In this document: piece after piece, positions 53,568 through 64,000 of the stretch
Position numbering within the stretch: position 1 is the first letter of the stretch
Layout: each line of letters opens with the position of its first letter
Origin: Chelativorans multitrophicus
GTDB lineage: Bacteria; Pseudomonadota; Alphaproteobacteria; Rhizobiales; Rhizobiaceae
Direction: 5' to 3'
Length of the DNA: 64,000 bases
Assembly: GCF_011317445.1 (NCBI RefSeq)
Contig: NZ_JAAAPL010000001.1
Span: 2,189,001 to 2,253,000 of the forward strand
Notes under the pieces: generated by a model
What the model saw: the letters and a program-made list of their open reading frames with translations, nothing else
Told to the model about the DNA's origin: nothing
Database searches by the model: none
Translations under genes and position numbers: made by a program

Positions 53568-53613
53568 AAAGTTATCCTTCCGGCTTGACGTGAGAAACCA
53601 TAAAGTGGATAAT

Positions 53614-53634
53614 GAAATCCATAACATGGATTTC
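53614..53634. promoter_or_regulatory. Perfect palindrome GAAATCCAT-AAC-ATGGATTTC, probable IclR operator
   Basis: Nine-base arms with a 3-base spacer, located between the divergent epimerase and CoA transferase starts, 19 bases before ATG 53653. The arrangement of TGGA/TCCA half-sites resembles IclR-family operators; an AACATGGATT word also precedes the IclR gene itself. Confidence 0.6.
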
Positions 53635-53652
53635 TACACTGGAGACGTTGCG

Positions 53653-54555
53653 ATGTCCACTCAGGTGCCGATGTCCCGGTCGACCGTACGGACAAGCAAA
53701 CTCGTTGACTTGACGGAGGCCATGGACGTCGTTTGCGACGGTCAGCTCCTGGTGCTTGGAGGCTTGTGGTTTCACAACAATCCATCCGCCCTTGCGCGTG
53801 AGATCGTCCGGCGGCGCATTCAAAATTTGCGCATTATCGCCGCGCCGCCTTCCGGATATGCCGTCGATCTATTGATCGGCGGGGGCTGCGTCGCCGAAGC
53901 CACGATCGGCCATGTGTCATTCGAGCATATGGGGCTTGCCCCAAATTTTCAGCGCGCCGCGCAGACGGGGGCTGTCAAGATCATCGACGCGGATGAAGCC
54001 ACGATACTCGGCGGGTTCATGGCCACGCTGGAGCATCTTCAAGACCACCCCGTCACGTCCGTGCGCGGAACGGACATCATGTCCTCCCCAATTGCTCGAC
54101 GCAACTCCGACGGCGTGGTTGCGCCTCGCGCCGTTGTTCCTGACGTCTGCCTCTTGCACGCACAAGAGGCCGACATTTATGGAAACGTGCGGAATTTCGG
54201 CAATTCCTTCGCCGATCCGCTGTTTGCAAAAGCGGCGCGCCACGTCATCGTCAGCGTGGACCGCATCGTCGAAAACAGCGAAGTCCGGAAGGAGCCGCAC
54301 CGGACGACTATTCCCGGCTATCTGGTGGACCGGATTGTCTGCGCTCCAGGTGGGGCGCATCCAGGCTCCAGCCAGGGCCTTTACCCGCACGACGAAACCG
54401 CGATCAAAGCATATATCAAGGCCGGCCAGGACCCCCGATCGTGGGAGGCCGACTATCTCGAGCCTCTGGTACACGCCCCTGGCACGCACGAAGACTATCT
54501 TGCGGCGATAGGGGGCTGGGAGCATTTGGTCGCCCTGAACGAGGTAGTCAAATGA
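53653..54555 (+). CDS. CoA transferase subunit A (GctA/IpdA-like)
   Basis: This is a 300-residue protein; ATG 53653 has GGAG eight bases upstream, while earlier in-frame starts (53590, 53626) would run through the palindromic operator. It has the alpha-subunit pattern LVVLGGLWFHNNPSALARE-like opening and AAPPSGYAVDLLIGGG, HVIVSVDRIVEN and PGYLVDRIVCAPGGAHPGS. Together with the next gene it forms a heteromeric class I CoA transferase or, as for IpdAB, a ring-opening CoA hydrolase. Overlaps subunit B by ATGA. Confidence 0.88.
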   Translation: MSTQVPMSRSTVRTSKLVDLTEAMDVVCDGQLLVLGGLWFHNNPSALAREIVRRRIQNLRIIAAPPSGYAVDLLIGGGCVAEATIGHVSFEHMGLAPNFQRAAQTGAVKIIDADEATILGGFMATLEHLQDHPVTSVRGTDIMSSPIARRNSDGVVAPRAVVPDVCLLHAQEADIYGNVRNFGNSFADPLFAKAARHVIVSVDRIVENSEVRKEPHRTTIPGYLVDRIVCAPGGAHPGSSQGLYPHDETAIKAYIKAGQDPRSWEADYLEPLVHAPGTHEDYLAAIGGWEHLVALNEVVK

Positions 54556-55322
54556 GCGGGTATTCGATAGGCGAGCTCATGGTCGTCCTCATCGCACGCG
54601 AACTGCGTGACGGCGATCTGGCCGTCACCGGGGCTTCATCACTGGTGCCGGTGGCAGCCTGCATGCTTGCACAGTCCATGCATGCACCCAACCTCACCAT
54701 GATCAGCCCAGCCGGGGTGGTGAATGCGCGGCCGCCCCGGCTCTATCATTCCGCATCGGACGGCCGCTGGTGCTTCAATGCAGAGGCAATCAACACCGGT
54801 TACGACTTGTTCGAGATGTCCGAAAACGGCCTGCTCGATGTCATGTTCTACGGAGGTGTCCAGATCGACCGTCGTGGCAATATCAACCTGACGGGAGTGG
54901 GCTATGACGAACATGGACGCCCCAAATTCCGCGGACCGGGCCTTGCCAACACTTCTTTCGCCGTGGTTTCGGGACGTATAATTCTATTCAGCGCGACCCA
55001 TACCAAGCGCACCTTTGTCGAAAAGCTGGATTTCCTGTCAGCAGCCGGTCACCTCGACGGCCCAGGCGCACGCCGCGCCAATGGCATCGAGACAGAAGGG
55101 CCGGTCTGTTGCGTTACGCCGAAAGTGGTCTTCGAGTTCGATGAGGAAAAGAATCTTCAGGTTCGTTCGCTCCATCCTGGCGTCTCCCAAGACGACGTCA
55201 TGGCAAACACGGGTTTCGAGCTGGCATGCGATGGCCCTTGGCCGAGCACCATCGAACCGACGGAAGAGGAACTGACGGTTCTTCGCACGCAGGTTGACGT
55301 GAGCGGTGAGCTCGCTCCCTAA
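54552..55322 (+). CDS. CoA transferase subunit B (GctB/IpdB-like)
   Basis: This 256-residue beta subunit begins at ATG 54552, overlapping subunit A (ATGA). It shows ELRDGDLAVTGASSLVPVAACMLA, FYGGVQIDRRGNINLTGVG and GPGLANTSFAVV, then a C-terminal VFEFDEEKN segment. In glutaconate CoA transferase the catalytic glutamate is in this subunit near residue 54; no clearly equivalent ExG was found at that position, which leaves open an IpdAB-type hydrolase role. It is followed by a CaiB-type gene after 29 bases. Confidence 0.85.
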   Translation: MSGYSIGELMVVLIARELRDGDLAVTGASSLVPVAACMLAQSMHAPNLTMISPAGVVNARPPRLYHSASDGRWCFNAEAINTGYDLFEMSENGLLDVMFYGGVQIDRRGNINLTGVGYDEHGRPKFRGPGLANTSFAVVSGRIILFSATHTKRTFVEKLDFLSAAGHLDGPGARRANGIETEGPVCCVTPKVVFEFDEEKNLQVRSLHPGVSQDDVMANTGFELACDGPWPSTIEPTEEELTVLRTQVDVSGELAP

Positions 55323-55351
55323 ACAACTAACCGCAAAAAATACGAACAAAG

Positions 55352-56611
55352 ATGAAACAGAGTAAACAGAACATGCAGCAGACATCGCTCAAAGGCGCAC
55401 GTGTAATCGACCTGACGCGGGTCGTTGCAGGTCCTTTCTCAACGACTATTCTCGCTGATCTCGGCGCGGATGTGATAAAGGCGGAGCGCCCTGGCGTGGG
55501 CGATGACAGCAGAAGCTGGGGGCCACCCTTCGTCGGGGAAGCGAGTTCGTATTTTCTTGGCTTGAACCGCAATCGGCGCAGCATCGCGATTGACCTGCAG
55601 TCTCCAGAGGGCGCGCAGATTATCCGCGATCTGGTCAAGCATGCGGATGTGCTTGTCGAGAGTTTCCGTCCAGGCGTGATGGAGCGACTGGGCCTGGGTT
55701 ACGAAACGCTCAGGCAGATCAATCCTTCGCTCGTCTATTGTGCCATCTCCGCCTACGGTCAGACCGGGCCATACAAATCACGCCCCGGATATGATCTGAT
55801 GATATCAGCCATGGGTGGGCTGATGAGCGTAACCGGGACTCCGGGTGGCGAGCCGGTCAAGACGGGCGTGGCGCTCATCGACGTGTGCACAGGCCTTCAC
55901 GCTGCTATCGGCATCCTTGGCGCCTTGTATCACCGGCAGGCTACCGGAGAAGGCCAGCGCGTTGACGCTTCGCTGCTGGGTTCACAGCTTGCGATGTTGA
56001 TCAATGTGGCCAGTGAATACCTCATCGGGGGCAGCATTGCGAAGCCGCAGGGCTCTGCCCATGCCAATGTTGCTCCCTATCAGGCATTCCCAAGCAAGGA
56101 TGGCTGGGTGCTCATGGGATCGCCGAACGACAAGCTGTTCGGGGTGATGTGCGATGCGCTCGGGCAACCTCAATGGAAGCATGATCCGCGCTTCGTCACC
56201 AATGGGGATCGCGTGGCGCACCGCGAAGAGCTCGTTGCCTTGATCAGCGATGTCACGCGCCAGCATCCAACCGATTACTGGGTGGACCTCTTGTCTTCGA
56301 CCGGCGCGCCGGTTGCTCCGATCAATACAATGGACAAGGTGTTCCAGAACGAGCAGGTTCAGCATCTCGCGCAAGTCGAACAGGTCGAGCATCCATTGTT
56401 CGGCAGTTATCCGGTTGTCACCTCTGCCTTGCGTATGTCGGCTACACCACCGGTGAAGGCCGCGCCTGCACCGCGTCTCGGACAGCATAGTCGTGAGGTC
56501 CTGTCGGAAGTGCTCGGGTGGGAAGACGATCAAATCGAGAAGTTAATCGCGGCAGGCGTTATAGAATTCCGTGAAGCCGGCGAACCTTTCCAAGGCAAGA
56601 ACGGCTCCTAG
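55352..56611 (+). CDS. Family III CoA transferase (CaiB/BaiF-type)
   Basis: This 419-residue enzyme has RVIDLTRVVAGPFSTTILADLGADVIK, NRNRRSIAIDL, AYGQTGPY and the catalytic aspartate in ALIDVCTGLHA. Close in type to the transferases at 38443 and 43018, it is the third such gene in the window. It is co-directional with the CoA transferase A/B pair, so the operon has two classes of CoA-transferring enzyme. ATG 55373 is a possible alternative start. Its end overlaps the convergent YeiH gene by 4 bases. Confidence 0.92.
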   Translation: MKQSKQNMQQTSLKGARVIDLTRVVAGPFSTTILADLGADVIKAERPGVGDDSRSWGPPFVGEASSYFLGLNRNRRSIAIDLQSPEGAQIIRDLVKHADVLVESFRPGVMERLGLGYETLRQINPSLVYCAISAYGQTGPYKSRPGYDLMISAMGGLMSVTGTPGGEPVKTGVALIDVCTGLHAAIGILGALYHRQATGEGQRVDASLLGSQLAMLINVASEYLIGGSIAKPQGSAHANVAPYQAFPSKDGWVLMGSPNDKLFGVMCDALGQPQWKHDPRFVTNGDRVAHREELVALISDVTRQHPTDYWVDLLSSTGAPVAPINTMDKVFQNEQVQHLAQVEQVEHPLFGSYPVVTSALRMSATPPVKAAPAPRLGQHSREVLSEVLGWEDDQIEKLIAAGVIEFREAGEPFQGKNGS

Positions 56612-57627
56612 GGTAAAGGTACAAGGAATGAGACGAGCACAAACCCCATCAGGGCGAGCAATACTACGGAGCATGTTGCAGCCAACATGACTCGTCCACC
56701 GGCGTGGAAAAAGGACCTGACATTCACGGAAAGCCCAAGCGCAGCCATAGCCAAGGTTGTCAATATGCTGGCGATTTGGGCCAAGATCTCTGCCTGTGCG
56801 GTTGACACAAGGCCAGAGGATCGAAGTGCAACCATCCCGAAGAACCCCAAAATGAACCAAGGGACCAGGGGTCTGGTTGCTTCACCCTTTTGACCGCCAA
56901 CTCGCACTTTCATTGCAGAGTTCAGTGCGAATACGACAGGGCCTAACATCAACACGCGGATGAGCTTCACGAGTGTCCCGATTTGAACGCTAACGGCCCC
57001 GACGGGCGCGGTAGCGGCAAGAACCTGAGGTACCGCATACGCTGTTATACCTGCGACAACGCCATATTGAGCGAGGGTCAGCTCAAGGTGATAATAAAGT
57101 AGGGGCAGCAGGAAAATCGCAAGAATGCCCAAACCTGCGGTGAACGCAAGCGCTGCAGCAACATCTTTAGCTGGCGCTTCGATGACAGGCGCAACAGCGA
57201 CGATGGCGGAGTTGCCGCAGATCGAATTACCGCAGGCAATAAGGATCGCAAGCTTTGCCGAAAGGCCAAGCAGCCGACCTATCAAGTAGGTGGCAGCAAT
57301 CGACAAGAATACAATGCTTGCCACGCCAACCACCAGCTCCACACCTGCATCGCGAATGGCCGAATAACTTATCGAAGCCCCGATAAGAACGATTGCAGCC
57401 TCCAGCAGACCTTTGGCGCTGAACTCGATGCCTGGTCTGAAGCGAGCTTCGATCGGGCGCCAGGTTGCGATAAAGATCCCGATGGCGATGGCAAGCACAA
57501 TGCTCTCGACCCACCGCACATGGAACACCATGAACTCTGCGTGCTCCATAGCGAGGGCCAGGCCGGCGACCGCTGCGGACAAAATAACGCCCGGAAAAAG
57601 TCGGCGGCTATTTTTAAGTATAGACAT
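56608..57627 (-). CDS. YeiH-family (UPF0324) putative sulfate/sulfite-type exporter
   Basis: This 339-residue inner-membrane protein has about 10 hydrophobic helices and the family motif ACGNSICGNSAIVAVAP, with AIVLIGASISYSAI and YAVPQVLAAT. YeiH homologues next to sulfonate-degrading genes are proposed sulfate or sulfite exporters; the transport reaction is not proven generally. It is divergent from a LysR gene as yeiH is from yeiE. The start codon lies inside TATAGACATTAT, a word also found beside the HutC-type regulator gene at 61341, which may link it to that regulator. Confidence 0.87.
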   Translation of the reverse strand: MSILKNSRRLFPGVILSAAVAGLALAMEHAEFMVFHVRWVESIVLAIAIGIFIATWRPIEARFRPGIEFSAKGLLEAAIVLIGASISYSAIRDAGVELVVGVASIVFLSIAATYLIGRLLGLSAKLAILIACGNSICGNSAIVAVAPVIEAPAKDVAAALAFTAGLGILAIFLLPLLYYHLELTLAQYGVVAGITAYAVPQVLAATAPVGAVSVQIGTLVKLIRVLMLGPVVFALNSAMKVRVGGQKGEATRPLVPWFILGFFGMVALRSSGLVSTAQAEILAQIASILTTLAMAALGLSVNVRSFFHAGGRVMLAATCSVVLLALMGFVLVSFLVPLP

Positions 57628-57734: not shown

Positions 57735-58637
57735 ATGACGTTTGAGCAGCTTGTCGTTTTCGTCGCCGTTGCGGAGCGAGAGCACCTAACCCAGGCCGCC
57801 GACGCTATCCATCTGACGCCATCCGCGGTGAGCGCGGCCATCAAGAACCTCGAGGGTTATTACGGTGTTGAACTCTTCCACCGCGTGGGTCGACGGATCG
57901 AACTCACCAGTACCGGGAAGACGTTTCTCGTTGAAGCGAAGGCGATGCTAGCACGCGTTCGTGCGGCCGAATTGATGTTGTCCGAATTGGGTGGATTGCA
58001 GCGGGGCAACCTCGGCGTGGCGGCAAGCCAGACCATTGCCAGCTATTGGCTTCCGCCAGTCTTGGTCGGGTTTCGCTCCAATTATCCGGGTATCCAAATC
58101 GACCTTACCCTTGGCAATACCCGGACCGTTGCCGAGGCAGTCCTTGATGGGCGCGCGGAAGTAGGCTTCGTGGAAGGCGAGATCGAAGCTGCAGCTTTGT
58201 CATCCGTGATCATTTCGGAAGACGCACTCATGATTGTCGTTAGCGCCAATCATCCTTGGTCTAAGGCCTCGTCGCTTAGTGTTGATGAATTGGTTCGCGG
58301 AAGCTCCTGGGTGATGCGCGAGGAAGGCTCCGGGACACGCTCCGAATTTGAAAATGCGCTCAAGCGATTGGGAGGAGCGCCGAGCGAACTGGATGTCGTC
58401 CTTACCCTTCCCTCCAATGAAGCCGTCCTTTCGGCCGTGCGAGCAGGCCATAGCGCCGCCGCGGTGTCGCATGCTGCCGCTGGGATCTACCTGCAGGAGG
58501 GCATCCTTGTACAAGCGCCGTTCGAATTGCCTACACGCGAGTTTCGCTTGCTCCGTCATAAGCAGCGACAACCGAGCAAGGCCTCGCTTGCCCTTGAGGC
58601 GGCATGTCGAAATTGCCGGGCGCCGCCGCCGCTTTAG
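57735..58637 (+). CDS. LysR-family transcriptional regulator (YeiE/CysB-like position)
   Basis: This 300-residue LysR protein has a winged helix at the N-terminus (FVAVAEREHLTQAADAIH, TPSAVSAAIKNLEGYYG, VELFHRVGRRIELT) and an effector domain beginning near residue 90 (GNLGVAASQTIASYWLP). Its divergence from the yeiH-like gene copies the enteric yeiE/yeiH layout, so it probably controls that gene. The 107-base shared region is AT-rich. The ligand is unknown. Confidence 0.92.
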   Translation: MTFEQLVVFVAVAEREHLTQAADAIHLTPSAVSAAIKNLEGYYGVELFHRVGRRIELTSTGKTFLVEAKAMLARVRAAELMLSELGGLQRGNLGVAASQTIASYWLPPVLVGFRSNYPGIQIDLTLGNTRTVAEAVLDGRAEVGFVEGEIEAAALSSVIISEDALMIVVSANHPWSKASSLSVDELVRGSSWVMREEGSGTRSEFENALKRLGGAPSELDVVLTLPSNEAVLSAVRAGHSAAAVSHAAAGIYLQEGILVQAPFELPTREFRLLRHKQRQPSKASLALEAACRNCRAPPPL

Positions 58638-58752: not shown

Positions 58753-59757
58753 ATGCAAGAAATCTGGATTGACTATCTGAACGCGTTGGACGCAAAAGCG
58801 CTGGCACTTAGTAACGATGAAATCCTCAACGCGGTTTCCAAGGCGTTAGAGGCGCAGGGGCGGGGCGAAACCGTTATCGAGCCTCGCGTTCATCTCGTTC
58901 CCGAGAGCTCCGACAAGGGTCATTTCAACGTCCTCCGCGGTTACGTTAAGTCCCTTGGTTATGCCGGCGTCAAAGTCGTTGGAGACTTCGTCGACAACTA
59001 CAAACAGGGACTTCCATCAGAGATGGCAGTGCTCAATCTCTTTGATCCCGAGACCGGCGTACCTCGGGCTATTATCGATGCGACCGCGATTACGGATATG
59101 CGTACTGGCGCCGTTACCGCAATTGGAGCCCGGCATTTGGCCCGCAAGGGCAGCAAGATCCTGGGACACGTTGGTGCGCGAGGAACGTCTTATTGGAATA
59201 TCCGACTTCTCGATCACATCTTTGATTTTGACGAAATTCGCGTTCACTCCAGACGGCCAGAGAGCCGGAATGTATTTGCGAAGCGGCTTGAGAATGATCT
59301 CGGAAAGAAGATCATTGTGACCGATAACTGGCGCGATTGCCTTGAGGGCGCCGATATCATGGTTGAGGCGAGCCGGCTGCCGGAACCAACCCCTCTTTTC
59401 GAGACAAAGTGGGTAAAAAAAGGTGCATTCGTCGTTCCTTATGGGACGATGAGCGCGCTGGAATTCGATCTGACGGATATCATGGATAAAGTAGTCGTCG
59501 ATGATTGGGGCCAGTGCGGGCCCGGTCGCCCCTATGGTGCGCTTCGCCGACACGTTGACGCCGGAAAGGTGACAGCTGAAAACCTGCATGCCGAGATGGG
59601 GCAAATCGTGGCCGGCCTGAAATCCGGCCGCGAGAGCGACGACGAAACAATCCTTTTCTGGCACCGAGGCCTTAGCAGCACAGACGTGGCGCTGGGTGCT
59701 GCGATGGTTGAAAAGGCCCGTCAGCTCGGAATTGGGCAAAAACTCCGCTTCGCGTGA
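58753..59757 (+). CDS. Ornithine cyclodeaminase/mu-crystallin-family enzyme
   Basis: This 334-residue protein has an N-terminal substrate domain (RVHLVPESSDKGHFNVLRGYV, KVVGDFVDNYKQGLPSEMAVLNLFDPETG), ATAITDMRTGAVTAIGARHLAR, and the Rossmann domain with GHVGARGTSYWNI, where the family usually has GxGxQ. The family includes ornithine cyclodeaminase, ketimine reductases and amino acid dehydrogenases. GAGGGGAG precedes the ATG. A PhnD-like gene follows with a short overlap or gap, so an amino acid or imine derived from an imported compound is the probable substrate. Reaction unassigned. Confidence 0.88.
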   Translation: MQEIWIDYLNALDAKALALSNDEILNAVSKALEAQGRGETVIEPRVHLVPESSDKGHFNVLRGYVKSLGYAGVKVVGDFVDNYKQGLPSEMAVLNLFDPETGVPRAIIDATAITDMRTGAVTAIGARHLARKGSKILGHVGARGTSYWNIRLLDHIFDFDEIRVHSRRPESRNVFAKRLENDLGKKIIVTDNWRDCLEGADIMVEASRLPEPTPLFETKWVKKGAFVVPYGTMSALEFDLTDIMDKVVVDDWGQCGPGRPYGALRRHVDAGKVTAENLHAEMGQIVAGLKSGRESDDETILFWHRGLSSTDVALGAAMVEKARQLGIGQKLRFA

Positions 59758-59768
59758 GGAAGCACGCT

Positions 59769-60581
59769 ATGCTGGTCGCCTCATCGAGGATGTACAATGT
59801 CGCTCCTGAGGTCCGGAGCCTCTGGGACGGCTTTTTTGATTGGCTGTCCCGCCAGGCGGATGCCGATCTGGAGATTGTTGCTCACGACGCTCCGGCGCCG
59901 CTCTCTGAACTGTGGCAAAGACCTGACCTCGGCGCGGTGTTCATGTGTGGATATCCATTCATCAGCATGGCGCCTGAGCTTCGCCCAATCGCACTCGCCG
60001 CGCCTGTGGCTCTGGCGGCTTGGTCGCAAGCGAAACCGCTTTACGCAAGCCATATCGTCGTTGCCGCAAATAATGCGGCAAAGACGCCAAAAGACCTGTT
60101 TGGCATGACCTTCGGCTGGACCGTCCGGGACTCGCAGTCAGGATATCATGCGCTGCGTCGGTTCCTGCTGGAAGGCTTTTCCTCCGAATTCCGTGATGCT
60201 CTTCCTCCCGCCAAGGGGCCGTTCTTGAACCCTACGGGTATCATACAGGCGGTAAGAGAGGGGCTTGTGGATGCGGGGCCGGTCGATGCTTACGCATTCG
60301 AACTGTTGCGCGTCCACGCGCCGGAAAAAATATCCGGGGTGAAAGTGATTGCAACCACCCCATCAACCCCCTGCCCGCTGCTCATCGCGTCACGTGGTAC
60401 ACCTCATTCTCTCAGCGACAATCTGCGAAACGCGCTTTTGAGCGCACATGAGGACGCCGAAGGTGCCAAATGGCTAGAGTCTCTCCAGTTACGCCGCTTC
60501 GCCGAGGTCGCAATTGATGACTACGCGATCCTCGCCGAATACCCTGGCCGGATCGAGCTAGAGAGCTTGCACGCATGGTGA
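59769..60581 (+). CDS. PhnD-like phosphate/phosphonate-type binding protein without signal peptide
   Basis: This encodes about 270 residues of a PhnD-type binding fold: LGAVFMCGYPF, YASHIVVAANN, the conserved DLFGMTFGWTVRDSQSGYHA, and DAGPVDAYAFELL. No signal peptide is visible from ATG 59769 (GAGGAAG upstream) or from GTG 59754, so it may act in the cytoplasm as a sensor or enzyme-associated ligand carrier. It is directly downstream of the ornithine-cyclodeaminase-family gene and no ABC permease is near. Convergent with the HutC-type regulator gene 7 bases away. Ligand unknown. Confidence 0.82.
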   Translation: MLVASSRMYNVAPEVRSLWDGFFDWLSRQADADLEIVAHDAPAPLSELWQRPDLGAVFMCGYPFISMAPELRPIALAAPVALAAWSQAKPLYASHIVVAANNAAKTPKDLFGMTFGWTVRDSQSGYHALRRFLLEGFSSEFRDALPPAKGPFLNPTGIIQAVREGLVDAGPVDAYAFELLRVHAPEKISGVKVIATTPSTPCPLLIASRGTPHSLSDNLRNALLSAHEDAEGAKWLESLQLRRFAEVAIDDYAILAEYPGRIELESLHAW

Positions 60582-60588
60582 ACATGGA

Positions 60589-61317
60589 TCACAACGTCGG
60601 CAGGACGTACTCGCCGCGAAGATCCATGCGATCGCCGGCAAGGACCATGCGCACGCGCGTGATCGGCAAGGCAAGATGATAGGTTTTCCGCTCGATTGCC
60701 ATGCAAGCCGCACCCGGAGTCAGGTCCAGGGCACGCGCAAGCTCTTCGCCACTGGAAATGGCGCTGATGCGATGACTGACAGACGACCACGGAATATTCG
60801 ACATCAGCCACGGACTGGGTGCGATAGTCGAAAAATCGATGTTGCGCGCATCCGGCGCGGCCCCCAGATTGATGTGCCGGGTCTCGAGCATGACAGGCAC
60901 GTCGTCGCAATAATGCAGGAGCTCGACATAAACGACCTCCGCATCGTCAGGTAAATCTGGCCAGCTAAATGCGGTGTTGTTTCGCAGAACCGTCTGCCGA
61001 CGCAGCTTGAACGCATAGATGGAATTGCGTTTGAAAACATCTTCGCTGATATCGGTGAGGGGCAGCACGAATGTCTGCTGGAACTTTCGGATAACGATCG
61101 TTCCCGCACGGCGATTTCGTTCGACAAGCCCGAACTTTGCAAGTTCTCGTAGGGCCTTATGAATGGTCTGGCGGGAAACATTGAACTGTTTGACGAGTTC
61201 GGCCTCGGAGGGCAGTCTCTCCCCGTGAGCATAAAACCCGTTAAGGATTCGACCGGTCAACTCGATCTCGACCTGCCGTACTCTCGATTGAGATCCGCCC
61301 TTTTCAAACGCTGTCAC
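60589..61317 (-). CDS. GntR-family regulator, HutC subfamily (UTRA domain)
   Basis: This is a 242-residue protein from GTG 61317 with GGGGAAG upstream. It has an N-terminal GntR helix-turn-helix (HGERLPSEAELVKQFNVSRQTIHKALRELAKFGLVER) and a C-terminal UTRA ligand domain (VVYVELLHYCDDVPVMLETRHIN, then ALDLTPGAACMAIERKTYHLALP). HutC itself senses urocanate. Here the divergent genes are a betaine-type binding protein and a MIO-less lyase, so a thiourocanate-like effector is plausible (inference). TATAGACAT words in the shared region are candidate operators. Confidence 0.92.
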   Translation of the reverse strand: MTAFEKGGSQSRVRQVEIELTGRILNGFYAHGERLPSEAELVKQFNVSRQTIHKALRELAKFGLVERNRRAGTIVIRKFQQTFVLPLTDISEDVFKRNSIYAFKLRRQTVLRNNTAFSWPDLPDDAEVVYVELLHYCDDVPVMLETRHINLGAAPDARNIDFSTIAPSPWLMSNIPWSSVSHRISAISSGEELARALDLTPGAACMAIERKTYHLALPITRVRMVLAGDRMDLRGEYVLPTL

Positions 61318-61340
61318 AAGCTACTTCCCCAAAAATAACA

Positions 61341-61352
61341 TATAGACATTAT
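61341..61352 (+). promoter_or_regulatory. TATAGACATTAT, candidate HutC-type operator (regulator side)
   Basis: Located 24 bases upstream of the GntR gene start. TATAGACAT recurs inverted at 61472-61480 and the full 12 bases recur at 57619-57630. Confidence 0.5.
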
Positions 61353-61471
61353 TGCAAATCCGCCGGTCGTGAAGACCGGGAAGTCGCCATCAAACGCCGC
61401 TTCCGTCTGCCAACGAAATACAAATAATACCTTTACAATTTAGCGTTCCGGCTTGCGACCCTCCTCCGATT

Positions 61472-61480
61472 ATGTCTATA
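61472..61480 (-). promoter_or_regulatory. TATAGACAT (inverted), candidate HutC-type operator (binding-protein side)
   Basis: ATGTCTATA on the plus strand, flanked by TT and CTAAT, 142 bases before the binding-protein start. With the site at 61341 it forms a widely spaced inverted pair suited to control both directions. Confidence 0.45.
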
Positions 61481-61621
61481 CTAATTATCAAGCACACGAA
61501 GAGGTGCATCGAGGGGAAGATCAAGCGCACTCGAGCGGCTGTGACCTTCCGACAATTCAAATCTGCCCACTGCCAGCCTGATTGCGCTGCAGGGCCCCGA
61601 AGCTTTGACAGGAGTATTCCA

Positions 61622-62503
61622 ATGAGGAAGTCTGCATTAATCGCAGCCTCGATTGTAAGCTTGGCATTCGGCATGGCGGCCCATGCCGCCGACAAAATTG
61701 TAGTCGGAACCAAAAATTTCACCGAACAGTACATTTTGGGCGAGATCTATGCCGGGGCACTTGAAAATGCTGGCATCCCGGTCGAACGAAAAATCAATCT
61801 CGGCGGGACCTTGATCGCTCACCAGGCCCTCGTTTCCGGGGACATCGATATGTATCCGGAATACACGGGGACGGCTCTGATCTCAGTCGTCAAAGGACCT
61901 GTCTCAAGTGACGCGGATGCAGTTTATAAGACCGTGCAGGACCACTACGCCAAGAATTTTCAACTGACGTGGCTTAAGCCGGCCGGCATCAACAACGGTT
62001 ATGCGCTCATCGTCGGGCCGGAAACGGCAGCCAAATACAATCTCAAAACGATGAGCGACCTGTCCAAGGTCTCCAAGGATCTCGTCCTTGGCGCCGGACC
62101 GGAATTTGCCGACCGGACGGATGGCCTGCCGGGTCTGAAGGCGAAATATGGCATGGAGTTTAAAGAGTTCAGGCAATTTGCGAAGCTCGGCTTGCGCTAC
62201 GACGCGCTCGCAGCAGGCCAGATCCAGGTCGGAAATGGTTTTGCGACCGACTGGCAAATCGCTGACAAGAAGTTTGTTTCGCTTGCCGACGATAAGGGGC
62301 TCTTCCCGCCGTATTACGTCGCGCCAATCATTCGCGACGACATCCTCAAGCAATTCCCAGGCGCAGAGGATGTTCTCAACAAGGTCAGCGCGGTTTTGGA
62401 TAATCAGGTAATGCAACAGTTGAACGCACTCGTCGAACGGGATCACGAGGAGGCGAAGGACGTTGCCGCCGAATTCCTTAAGCAACACGGGTTCGGCAAA
62501 TAA
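61622..62503 (+). CDS. Quaternary-amine-type ABC substrate-binding protein (OpuAC/ProX-like), candidate ergothioneine binder
   Basis: This is a 293-residue protein; ATG 61622 follows CAGGAGTATTC and starts a signal peptide cleaved near AHA-AD (residue 22). The mature part is the OpuAC/OsmF type: IVVGTKNFTEQYILGEI, NLGGTLIAHQALVSGDIDMYPEYTGTAL and DRTDGLPGLKAKYG. Members bind trimethylammonium compounds such as glycine betaine, choline and, for EgtU, ergothioneine. The lyase homologue encoded next would act on such a betaine. Permease genes are not between them and may lie beyond the edge. Confidence 0.88.
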   Translation: MRKSALIAASIVSLAFGMAAHAADKIVVGTKNFTEQYILGEIYAGALENAGIPVERKINLGGTLIAHQALVSGDIDMYPEYTGTALISVVKGPVSSDADAVYKTVQDHYAKNFQLTWLKPAGINNGYALIVGPETAAKYNLKTMSDLSKVSKDLVLGAGPEFADRTDGLPGLKAKYGMEFKEFRQFAKLGLRYDALAAGQIQVGNGFATDWQIADKKFVSLADDKGLFPPYYVAPIIRDDILKQFPGAEDVLNKVSAVLDNQVMQQLNALVERDHEEAKDVAAEFLKQHGFGK

Positions 62504-62520
62504 ATCGCCACATTAAGATT

Positions 62521-62543
62521 GTCCCGCCGACATTCGGCGGGAC
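62521..62543 (+). other. Perfect 10-base-pair hairpin between binding-protein and lyase genes
   Basis: GTCCCGCCGA (62521-62530) pairs with TCGGCGGGAC (62534-62543) over loop CAT, 17 bases after the stop and 17 before the lyase start. No T-run. Probably an mRNA stabiliser/partial terminator favouring the binding protein. Confidence 0.6.
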
Positions 62544-62560
62544 TGGCAACGGAAGACAGA

Positions 62561-64000
62561 ATGCAGATCGTCCTCAAGAGTACAGGCGCCTCGGTTGATG
62601 AGATATGCGCGATCGCTGGCGGTGCAAAGGTTGCCGTTTCTGACGAAGCGATAAAGCGTATTGCGAGCGCTTATGAATGCCTATCCCGTCACTCGGCGAC
62701 CGGTAAGGCTATCTATGGTGTCAGCACCGGACTTGGGGCGGCTGTGGACACCCGGGTCTCCCCAAATTCGGGTGGCGGTCAACATCGCATTCCGCTGGCG
62801 CGAGCGGTCGGCGTTGGGCACTACGCCGGGACCGAAGAGGTTCGAGCGATGATGGCGGCGCGGCTCGCGCGGCTTTGCCTAGGGAATGCCGGAGCGTCCA
62901 CTTCGGTCGTTTCCGCGCTCGCGTCAATGCTCAATCATTCCATCCATCCGTTGGTGCCCATGATCGGATCGGTTGGCGAAGCGGATCTTGCGCCCCTGGC
63001 CCACATTGCGAGCGTACTGACCGGATCTGGCTTCGCTTATTTACCGGATGGAACTCTTGTTGATGGAGCGAGAGCCTTTGAAGCGTCCAACATTCAGCTT
63101 CCGGAATTTGGCCTGAAGGACGGCCTGGCACTTGTTTCCTCCAATTCGGGATCATTGGGGTTGACATGCCTCATAGTTCGCGAGGCACGGCGTGTGCTGC
63201 AGTCGCACGTGACGGGGCTGGCATTATCTTTTGAAGGCTTCCGAGCGAACCTCCATCCAATCTCTCCGGAAGCCGTCCGACTGCGACCGGCGCCAGGCCA
63301 AGCCGCGGTCTCGGCCGAGCTCTTGCGGCTTCTCGATGGCGGCGAGCTTGCAGGGGGCGCGCCGGCCAGGAGATTGCAGGACCCGATCAGTCTTCGCTCT
63401 GCATCCTCCGTAGTCGGCTCGGCGGTTGCGGCCCTTGAGGCGCTCGAGTCTTCCGTCACACTCGAGTTGAGCTGCAGTGACGACAATCCTGCGGTGCTTG
63501 CGGATGAAGACCTTGTCCTTCCAAACGGAAATTTCGAGCCGACCCATCTGGCGCTTGCGATCGACATGCTTGGGCTCGCTTTGGCGCGTCTTGCCGCTAT
63601 GGCAGCGGAACGGATGATGAAGCTCTTGTCGCCGATCTTCTCCGAGCTACCCCGTTTTCTTGCGCCAGCGGAGGCCGGCTCGAACGGGTTTGCCACAGTC
63701 CAGAAGACGATTTCAGCTTTGACGGCCGAGATTGGACATCTTGCTTTACCCCTGCCCTTTACAGCTCCGCCGGTGGCCGACCGTGTGGAAGATTACGCAT
63801 CACTTGCCTTCTCCGGGGCCGACAAGCTCAAGAGGATTGTCGAGCGGGTACGCCTGCTTACCGCAGCAGAAATGATGATCGCCGCTCAGGCCATTGACAT
63901 GAGAGGAAACATACGGATCGGATCTGGCTGTATCCAGGCCTTGGAAGACATCCGTGCGGTTTGCCCCCCGCTCGATGTGGACCGCCCCACCGGTACTGAC
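62561..64000 (+). CDS. Histidine ammonia-lyase-family protein lacking the MIO triad, candidate ergothionase (3' end outside window)
   Basis: The frame is open from ATG 62561 (GGAAGAC upstream) to the edge, 480 residues. It is a full HAL/PAL-fold sequence: IYGVSTGLG (Y52), LCLGNAGAST, QDPISLRS, NGNFEPTHLALAIDML and AAERMMKLL. Where HAL has GSVGASGDLAPL, forming the MIO electrophile from Ala-Ser-Gly, this protein reads GSVGEADLAPL (136-146), one residue shorter, so MIO cannot form. HAL's active-site His83 position appears to be Arg here (PLARA) and Tyr280 is Ile. Ergothionase, which releases trimethylamine from ergothioneine, is a known MIO-less HAL relative; the betaine binding protein upstream supports that reading. 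A hercynine lyase is the main alternative. Confidence 0.8.
   Translation, partial: MQIVLKSTGASVDEICAIAGGAKVAVSDEAIKRIASAYECLSRHSATGKAIYGVSTGLGAAVDTRVSPNSGGGQHRIPLARAVGVGHYAGTEEVRAMMAARLARLCLGNAGASTSVVSALASMLNHSIHPLVPMIGSVGEADLAPLAHIASVLTGSGFAYLPDGTLVDGARAFEASNIQLPEFGLKDGLALVSSNSGSLGLTCLIVREARRVLQSHVTGLALSFEGFRANLHPISPEAVRLRPAPGQAAVSAELLRLLDGGELAGGAPARRLQDPISLRSASSVVGSAVAALEALESSVTLELSCSDDNPAVLADEDLVLPNGNFEPTHLALAIDMLGLALARLAAMAAERMMKLLSPIFSELPRFLAPAEAGSNGFATVQKTISALTAEIGHLALPLPFTAPPVADRVEDYASLAFSGADKLKRIVERVRLLTAAEMMIAAQAIDMRGNIRIGSGCIQALEDIRAVCPPLDVDRPTGTD

Follow-up and report, generated by a model that had tools for sequence, protein, structure and literature searches.

A lyase lacking the MIO triad and a conserved OCD-family partner define a putative ergothioneine sulfonate locus in Chelativorans multitrophicus

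Near the 3' end of the window analyzed here, a 64,000-nucleotide stretch of Chelativorans multitrophicus DNA (assembly GCF_011317445.1, contig NZ_JAAAPL010000001.1, positions 2,189,001 to 2,253,000), we identified a locus that probably imports ergothioneine sulfonate, a histidine betaine carrying a sulfonate at C2, and degrades it to urocanate. Its central elements are a lyase with the histidine ammonia-lyase (HAL) fold lacking the triad of the 4-methylideneimidazole-5-one (MIO) cofactor, the binding protein of an importer, and a reductase of the OCD/mu-crystallin family, encoded as follows.

58753 to 59757, + strand: NAD(P)H-type reductase of the OCD/mu-crystallin family, suggested to desulfonate 2-sulfourocanate reductively (PF02423, 177 bits; in 77 of 80 related loci)
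61622 to 62503, + strand: binding protein of the OpuAC type whose ligand is probably a histidine betaine (PF04069, 233.4 bits; EgtUC ligand residues kept save the thione contacts)
62561 to 64000, + strand, reaching L006:4075 beyond the window: HAL-fold lyase without MIO, probably releasing trimethylamine from a histidine betaine (PF00221, 391.9 bits; GSVGEAD; PDB match to Treponema denticola ergothionase)

In the proposed pathway, the OpuAC-type binding protein, two permeases, and an ATPase would import ergothioneine sulfonate, and the lyase would eliminate trimethylamine to give 2-sulfourocanate, a step for which no MIO would be required because the leaving group is already quaternary. The OCD-family reductase would then transfer a hydride from NAD(P)H to ring C2, with sulfite leaving and urocanate being formed; urocanate would enter the hut pathway encoded next door, while a YeiH-type exporter would remove sulfite or sulfate. 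We suggest ergothioneine sulfonate as the substrate because it joins betaine import, trimethylamine elimination, a reductase acting next, urocanate as the output, and a sulfate-type exporter that shares an operator-like motif with the importer-lyase operon.

The lyase open reading frame (ORF) starts at the ATG at 62561 and encodes 504 amino acids in the full genome, with a PF00221 score well above the cut-off of 27.3 bits. As the first-pass annotation of this DNA had proposed, the cofactor motif is altered: residues 136 to 142 read GSVGEAD in place of the GSVGASGD of the genome's own HutH, so that the window lyase is one residue short and the Ala-Ser-Gly triad is absent, which separates it from HAL enzymes (TIGR01225, 316 bits, under the cut-off of 539) and leaves it with the ergothionase trait of a HAL fold devoid of the MIO triad. 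Among the 80 relatives used for comparison (the best 80 of 253 from a scan of genome contigs), the first variable site of the motif is E in 46 and A in 34, and the next is A in 56, S in 17, and G in 7. The suggested relationship with ergothionase is supported by PDB matches, the T. denticola enzyme being both the top-ranked PDB match by sequence (243.5 bits) and the first Foldseek match by E-value of the lyase structure model (predicted local distance difference test [pLDDT] score of 91.6; 30 rows, with L060, L065, and L105 excluded). The fold itself cannot separate ergothionase from HAL, because the template modeling (TM) scores are 0.92 and 0.93, respectively.

With T. denticola ergothionase (PDB 6s7j; 30% identity), the window lyase has in common the residues corresponding to Y53, N196, E226, R280, K355, R366, K383, and E411, and the positions of Y53, N196, and E411 are invariant across the 80 relatives; different from the T. 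denticola enzyme, R57 and W61 are replaced by T and A in all 80, and the partner genes are not the same. The position matching K383, which we take, from HAL structures, to face the C2 side of the imidazole, is K in 63 and R in 17 of the relatives and V in HutH. It could be supposed, with rather low probability, that the substrate is ergothioneine itself, from which the lyase would form thiourocanate and the OCD-family protein would reductively remove sulfide to leave urocanate, a short cut beside the known five-step route; a basic residue at the K383 position could bind a thiolate too, and the first place of ergothionase among the PDB matches points the same way. The conserved K/R is instead left unexplained if, as appears slightly less probable still, the substrate is hercynine, the plain histidine betaine, which the lyase alone would convert to urocanate and trimethylamine, with the OCD-family protein doing something else.

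The first-pass annotation had held that a lyase grouping away from ergothionases would speak against its proposal, and this is partly the case. In a quick maximum-likelihood tree of 85 of 162 sequences, the T. denticola ergothionase, the one characterized ergothionase included, groups with seven thiourocanate-cluster lyases, with P0005 (another lyase of the C. multitrophicus genome), and with the lyase of genome G138 (support of 92), and the 19 HAL sequences are united in a single clade (99). The window lyase belongs to a clade of 41 sequences (99) nested in a group of 55 (93), in which an OCD-family gene lies nearby in 43 cases, nine of the other 12 having been read over only 1.5 kb on each side, the span covered for loci L010 to L044. 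The approximately unbiased test rejected a placement of the T. denticola enzyme inside the group of 55 (P = 0.00048). The position of the window lyase outside the group of T. denticola ergothionase and thiourocanate-cluster lyases argues against ergothioneine as the substrate, even though the separation is not final because of long branches (P0002, P0005, T. denticola, and others), the odd letter composition of the T. denticola row, and the naming of the group after the first tree.

The OCD-family gene, whose product is proposed to carry out the second reaction, accompanies the lyase gene with great constancy. An ortholog with 67 to 91% identity occurs near the lyase in 77 of the 80 loci, at a distance of at most 3.1 kb and, in 76 of the 77, on the same strand; with such a near-constant partner upstream, the start at 60589 originally given for the locus is too late. 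The loci without it are L058, L065, and L111, and L065 is the sole full miss, because the sequence of L058 opens only 12 bases ahead of the lyase match and that of L111 stops 136 bases beyond it. The whole set of seven genes (lyase, OCD-family reductase, PhnD-like protein, binding protein, two permeases, and ATPase) is present in 27 of the 80. The group of these orthologs is also sharply bounded, with members in 18 of 199 same-family genomes, always with at least 67% identity and with no further match up to an E-value of 1e-40, and 17 of these 18 genomes encode a HAL-fold lyase no more than about 3 kb away. A partner conserved to this extent is left unexplained by hercynine degradation. Both the domain score (cut-off of 24 bits) and the structure model (pLDDT of 89.2) place the protein in the OCD/mu-crystallin family, the structural matches being NAD(P)-dependent imine reductases and alanine dehydrogenase (1omo; TM score of 0.88). 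Thirteen NCBIfam families of named OCD enzymes matched at an E-value of 1e-5, and none of them at its cut-off, the best score being 190 of 409 bits.

The binding protein gene is located directly upstream of the lyase gene, as had been noticed, and two permease genes and an ATPase gene follow downstream (L006:4075-6306), completing the betaine-type importer that had been predicted; the best NCBIfam match of the ATPase is of the betaine/proline/choline type (313.6 bits against a cut-off of 326.6). We compared 28 binding proteins of this kind with EgtUC, the binding protein of the EgtU ergothioneine importer, using the published ligand contacts (PMC9732360) and a chain that has A at position 243. 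The OpuAC fold is shared, and the residues for the carboxylate (K242, T296, and R379), the imidazole (E375 and T275), and the cage (N339, Y341, and Y443) are retained in all 28 proteins, making 8 of the 13 checked positions identical throughout. In contrast, the three thione contacts are replaced, I243 by N in 25 and S in 3, G244 by F in all 28, and T274 by G in all 28; furthermore, F293 is Y in 28 of 28, and Y419 is variable. These residues appear to fit a histidine betaine, not its thione, a pattern which speaks against ergothioneine and would suit hercynine.

The control region of the operon and the putative exporter gene comprise the following elements.

60589 to 61317, - strand: HutC-like GntR repressor (GntR and UTRA domains; TIGR02018, 216.6 bits)
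61341 to 61351, - strand: putative operator TAATGTCTATA, inverted-repeat arm, one of three motif sites in the genome
61470 to 61480, + strand: putative operator TTATGTCTATA, inverted-repeat arm, one of three motif sites in the genome
57619 to 57629, - strand: third putative operator TAATGTCTATA, at the YeiH gene start
56608 to 57627, - strand: YeiH-family putative sulfate/sulfite exporter (PF03601, 210.6 bits; TIGR00698, 149.5 bits, under the cut-off of 232.6)

The divergent GntR gene, which had been described as HutC type, indeed resembles HutC, with a TIGR02018 score just under the cut-off of 220 bits; the hut-linked HutC of the same genome reaches 297.7 bits and the lyase-adjacent regulator of L097 reaches 280.1. 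Between this gene and the binding protein gene lies an inverted repeat formed by two copies of an 11-mer, TTATGTCTATA, which with at most one mismatch has three sites in the window against 0.13 expected, the third site being at the start of the YeiH gene. The refined 12-bp pattern TWATGTCTATAY, which was written after its three sites had been seen, has just these 3 sites in the 4.82-Mb genome, two before the importer-lyase operon and one at YeiH, and its reversed control has none; the loci of other genomes did not contain it. Judged from the motif, the importer-lyase operon is thus tied to the YeiH-type putative exporter. An exporter of the sulfate type under common control would be unneeded for ergothioneine, and the shared motif is left unexplained by hercynine, whereas this motif and the OCD-family partner, as far as genes and motifs go, fit elimination by the lyase followed by removal of a sulfonate and disposal of sulfite. 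In Aureimonas (L056), there are two one-mismatch matches to the motif (0.07 expected), but their positions, 2674 and 19146, are not close to the lyase operon.

A second element, the palindrome TGTATATACA, has 34 sites in 25 of the 80 loci, where 0.1 would be expected on the basis of Markov resamples, and is missing in the other 55; the number of sites does not equal that of independent events, because many of the loci are close kin. In six Enterobacterales loci, its position is the start of the binding protein ORF that precedes the lyase, or a point shortly upstream of that start; in two Salinicola loci and in Hoeflea, it precedes the lyase; and in 16 Rhizobium-type loci, it lies 1 to 3 kb upstream of a hutC-like ORF, which in L097 places it 67 bases past the YeiH ORF. 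Moreover, it accompanies hut genes in L066, L111, L114, and the genome of the window (L006:12402). TGTATATACA fits the HutC operator TGTA-N2-TACA, whose effector is urocanate (PMC12977541). Since HutC-type operators precede hut genes and the lyase operon alike in some of the relatives, urocanate is the likely product, an argument that applies equally to ergothioneine, if it were desulfurized as described above, and to hercynine, for which the neighboring hut genes would be appropriate too.

Beyond the importer genes there is a convergent hutD-hutU-hutG-hutH-hutI set, followed by hutF and hutC, and its HutU is an ordinary one (960 bits against a cut-off of 375). Ordinary hut genes immediately downstream had been considered evidence against an ergothioneine-type locus; HutU, hutG, and hutI are present, but they run convergently and are accompanied by a MIO-type HutH of their own. 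The genes predicted for the 3' side were found only in part: the 16.5 kb read around the window lyase contain the permeases and the ATPase, but a thiourocanate hydratase, a desulfurase, a hydantoinase, and a carbamoylase were not seen there. The presence of a urocanase gene was set aside as proof of a urocanate product, since it is found in 38 of 40 lyase genomes (from 40 of the 80 loci, chosen by the analyst) against a background of 77 of 150 in Acetobacteraceae, where 4 of 6 lyase genomes have it. A single urocanase is encoded in 17 of 26 lyase genomes (25 of the 40 surveyed, plus G000), which counts in favor of the proposed pathway.

The conversion of ergothioneine to thiourocanate that had been assigned to this locus is not supported here, as the thiourocanate genes stand elsewhere in the genome beside other lyases, the genome having five PF00221 genes and three urocanases in total. 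About 400 kb from the window locus (L007/L154; C1:1848713 to approximately 1867400), two MIO-less lyases, P0004 (GSIGCAD) and P0005 (GSVGVGD), are encoded with a thiourocanate hydratase (1047 bits, cut-off of 930), a thiohydantoin desulfurase (584 bits, cut-off of 440), and proteins homologous to the hydantoinase (62%) and carbamoylase (50%) of L008; dipeptide-type ABC transporter genes and, by eye, argininosuccinate-lyase-like and old-yellow-enzyme-like genes are also present. With the hydratase and desulfurase models, the corresponding cluster of Rhizobium (L155) reaches 1062 and 589 bits. This is the five-step ergothioneine cluster (ergothionase, thiourocanate hydratase, thiohydantoin desulfurase, hydantoinase, and carbamoylase), which resembles the window locus in having a MIO-less HAL-fold lyase as its first enzyme; different from it, the window lyase lacks the four later enzymes beside it, and P0004 belongs to another clade.

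A further cluster, L008 (C1:1654977-1669938), combines the lyase P0002 with a urocanase homologue above the cut-off for S-methyl thiourocanate hydratase (NF058531; 980 bits, cut-off of 880). Like the window locus, it pairs a MIO-less lyase with a quaternary-amine-type importer, but P0002 has Y at the K383 position in place of K or R, and the cluster has its own hydratase, hydantoinase, and carbamoylase, with no OCD-family partner seen in the stretch. Its content, some of it recognized by eye, includes a ProXWV-like importer, the hydantoinase and carbamoylase, and a molybdopterin oxidoreductase, with rhodanese-like and persulfide-dioxygenase-like genes nearby. P0002 was considered as an ergothionase and rejected, its urocanase partner reaching 723 of 930 bits with the thiourocanate model; a plasmid search with P0002 gave no match at 1e-70. 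Because both clusters have lyases of their own, the window lyase would be needed for neither the ergothioneine nor the S-methyl route, and the hydratase and desulfurase encoded elsewhere weigh against ergothioneine as its substrate.

A bacterial ergothioneine sulfonate catabolic pathway has been published (Yan, Huang, and Zhang 2022, ACS Catal 12:4825); its title is cited in PMC13405746 and PMC9967237, the former linking it to Agrobacterium radiobacter. On the strength of that title, which names the substrate proposed here, the window locus is most likely a member of this kind of pathway. As far as those citations tell, the published pathway comes from Agrobacterium/Rhizobium, and Rhizobium rhizogenes OV677 (L109) carries the cluster described here. 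Our literature search returned nothing on the pathway beyond the cited title, from which no absence from print is claimed. Should the second enzyme of the published pathway prove to be unlike OCD proteins, the OCD step would be new. We advance only tentatively, as a possibility somewhat on the unlikely side, that the locus encodes an OCD-family reductase with a new function, carbon-sulfur cleavage at imidazole C2 (2-sulfourocanate desulfonation), near-constantly paired with a MIO-less trimethylamine-lyase and sharing HutC-type control with a sulfite exporter, in a genome where ergothioneine, S-methyl-ergothioneine, and ergothioneine sulfonate each have a gene set of their own. Ergothioneine is a mushroom antioxidant, and urocanate is a normal breakdown product of histidine. 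Were the proposed pathway correct, the fate of the sulfur and nitrogen of oxidized ergothioneine would be accounted for, the lyase group devoid of its cofactor motif would have a role, and the OCD family would gain a member that cleaves a carbon-sulfur bond.

Several observations weigh against ergothioneine sulfonate degradation. In the PDB, the binding protein matches sensor precursors of the choline type best (216.6 bits), EgtUC following with 171 bits, and N, F, and G at the thione contacts are residues of choline-type proteins too, so that the differences from EgtUC may be ancestral. In genome G133, two copies of the OCD-family gene are present, and the 16 kb read around either of them contain no lyase gene; in G106, the 16 kb read contain a lyase gene and no OCD-family gene. 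A window motif general to the relatives had to be rejected, TAATGTCTATA being confined, among 185 loci searched, to those of the window's own genome. Within the stretches read, a YeiH homologue is present in only 11 and hut genes in only 4 of the 80 loci, and a urocanase is missing in 2 of the 40 lyase genomes, the Acetobacteraceae background being that given above. Finally, the proposed pathway makes no use of the CoA-transferase, SDR, and MaoC-type genes of Rhizobium operons or of a fatty-acid-desaturase-family gene in Pseudomonas and Acetobacter loci; these genes, the CoA genes of the window, the PhnD-like protein, the two urocanase-less lyase genomes, and the rarity of hut genes are unexplained by it.

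Some of these features would be accommodated by another betaine, for example an aromatic or proline betaine, eliminated to an acrylate and then passed on as a CoA ester by the linked CoA-transferase, SDR, and MaoC enzymes. Such genes occur in the Rhizobium johnstonii operon, CoA-transferase-like and CaiB-type genes lie upstream in the window, and the choline-type matches of the binding protein point in this direction; we nevertheless regard this as very improbable, in view of the imidazole and carboxylate contacts conserved in 28 of 28 binding proteins and of the HutC-type regulators and sites. Ergothioneine sulfonate remains the substrate that we favor. In R. johnstonii pRL12, the order is putative sulfate exporter, CoA-transferase, SDR, MaoC-type gene, hutC, hutH, betaine binding protein, OCD-family gene, PhnD-like gene, two permeases, and ATPase. 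Because the public annotation of strain 3841 labels the regulator and lyase genes hutC and hutH, a betaine pathway is there read as histidine use.

Two further genes of the window belong to the surroundings of the locus.

59754 to 60581, + strand: PhnD/SsuA-like binding-fold protein (PF12974, 102.2 bits; no signal peptide by eye; homologue in 45 of 80 loci)
57735 to 58637, + strand: LysR regulator, distantly YeiE/CysB-like (PF03466 and PF00126; homologue in 11 of 80 loci)

The PhnD/SsuA-like gene overlaps the end of the OCD-family gene, and a cytoplasmic role for its product is possible. In Pseudomonas, an SsuA-like protein is part of the cluster in 15 of 17 loci, and the one that was scored lies above the sulfonate-binding cut-off (385 of 299 bits), which counts in favor of ergothioneine sulfonate. 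For the LysR regulator, none of the 25 NCBIfam families listed reaches its cut-off. Upstream in the window, at 53590 to 56611, are genes resembling CoA-transferase subunits and a CaiB-type CoA-transferase gene. A fatty-acid-desaturase-family gene is found in 21 of the 80 loci (e.g., L070:691-6799 and L060:4238-9911), and in L070 it adjoins the PhnD-like gene and a TonB-dependent receptor gene.

The OCD-family and PhnD-like genes also occur as a pair with no lyase in the stretch read (L183 and L187), in G133 and on a Terrarubrum flagellatum plasmid; on the plasmid, the pair adjoins a desaturase gene and a gene with a B12-binding domain. An actinobacterial version is found on the Rhodococcus plasmid pdjl-6-5 (L188:6001-12786), with an OCD match, a PhnD-like gene, an annotated hutH, and ABC transporter genes, so that the pairing is not confined to proteobacteria.

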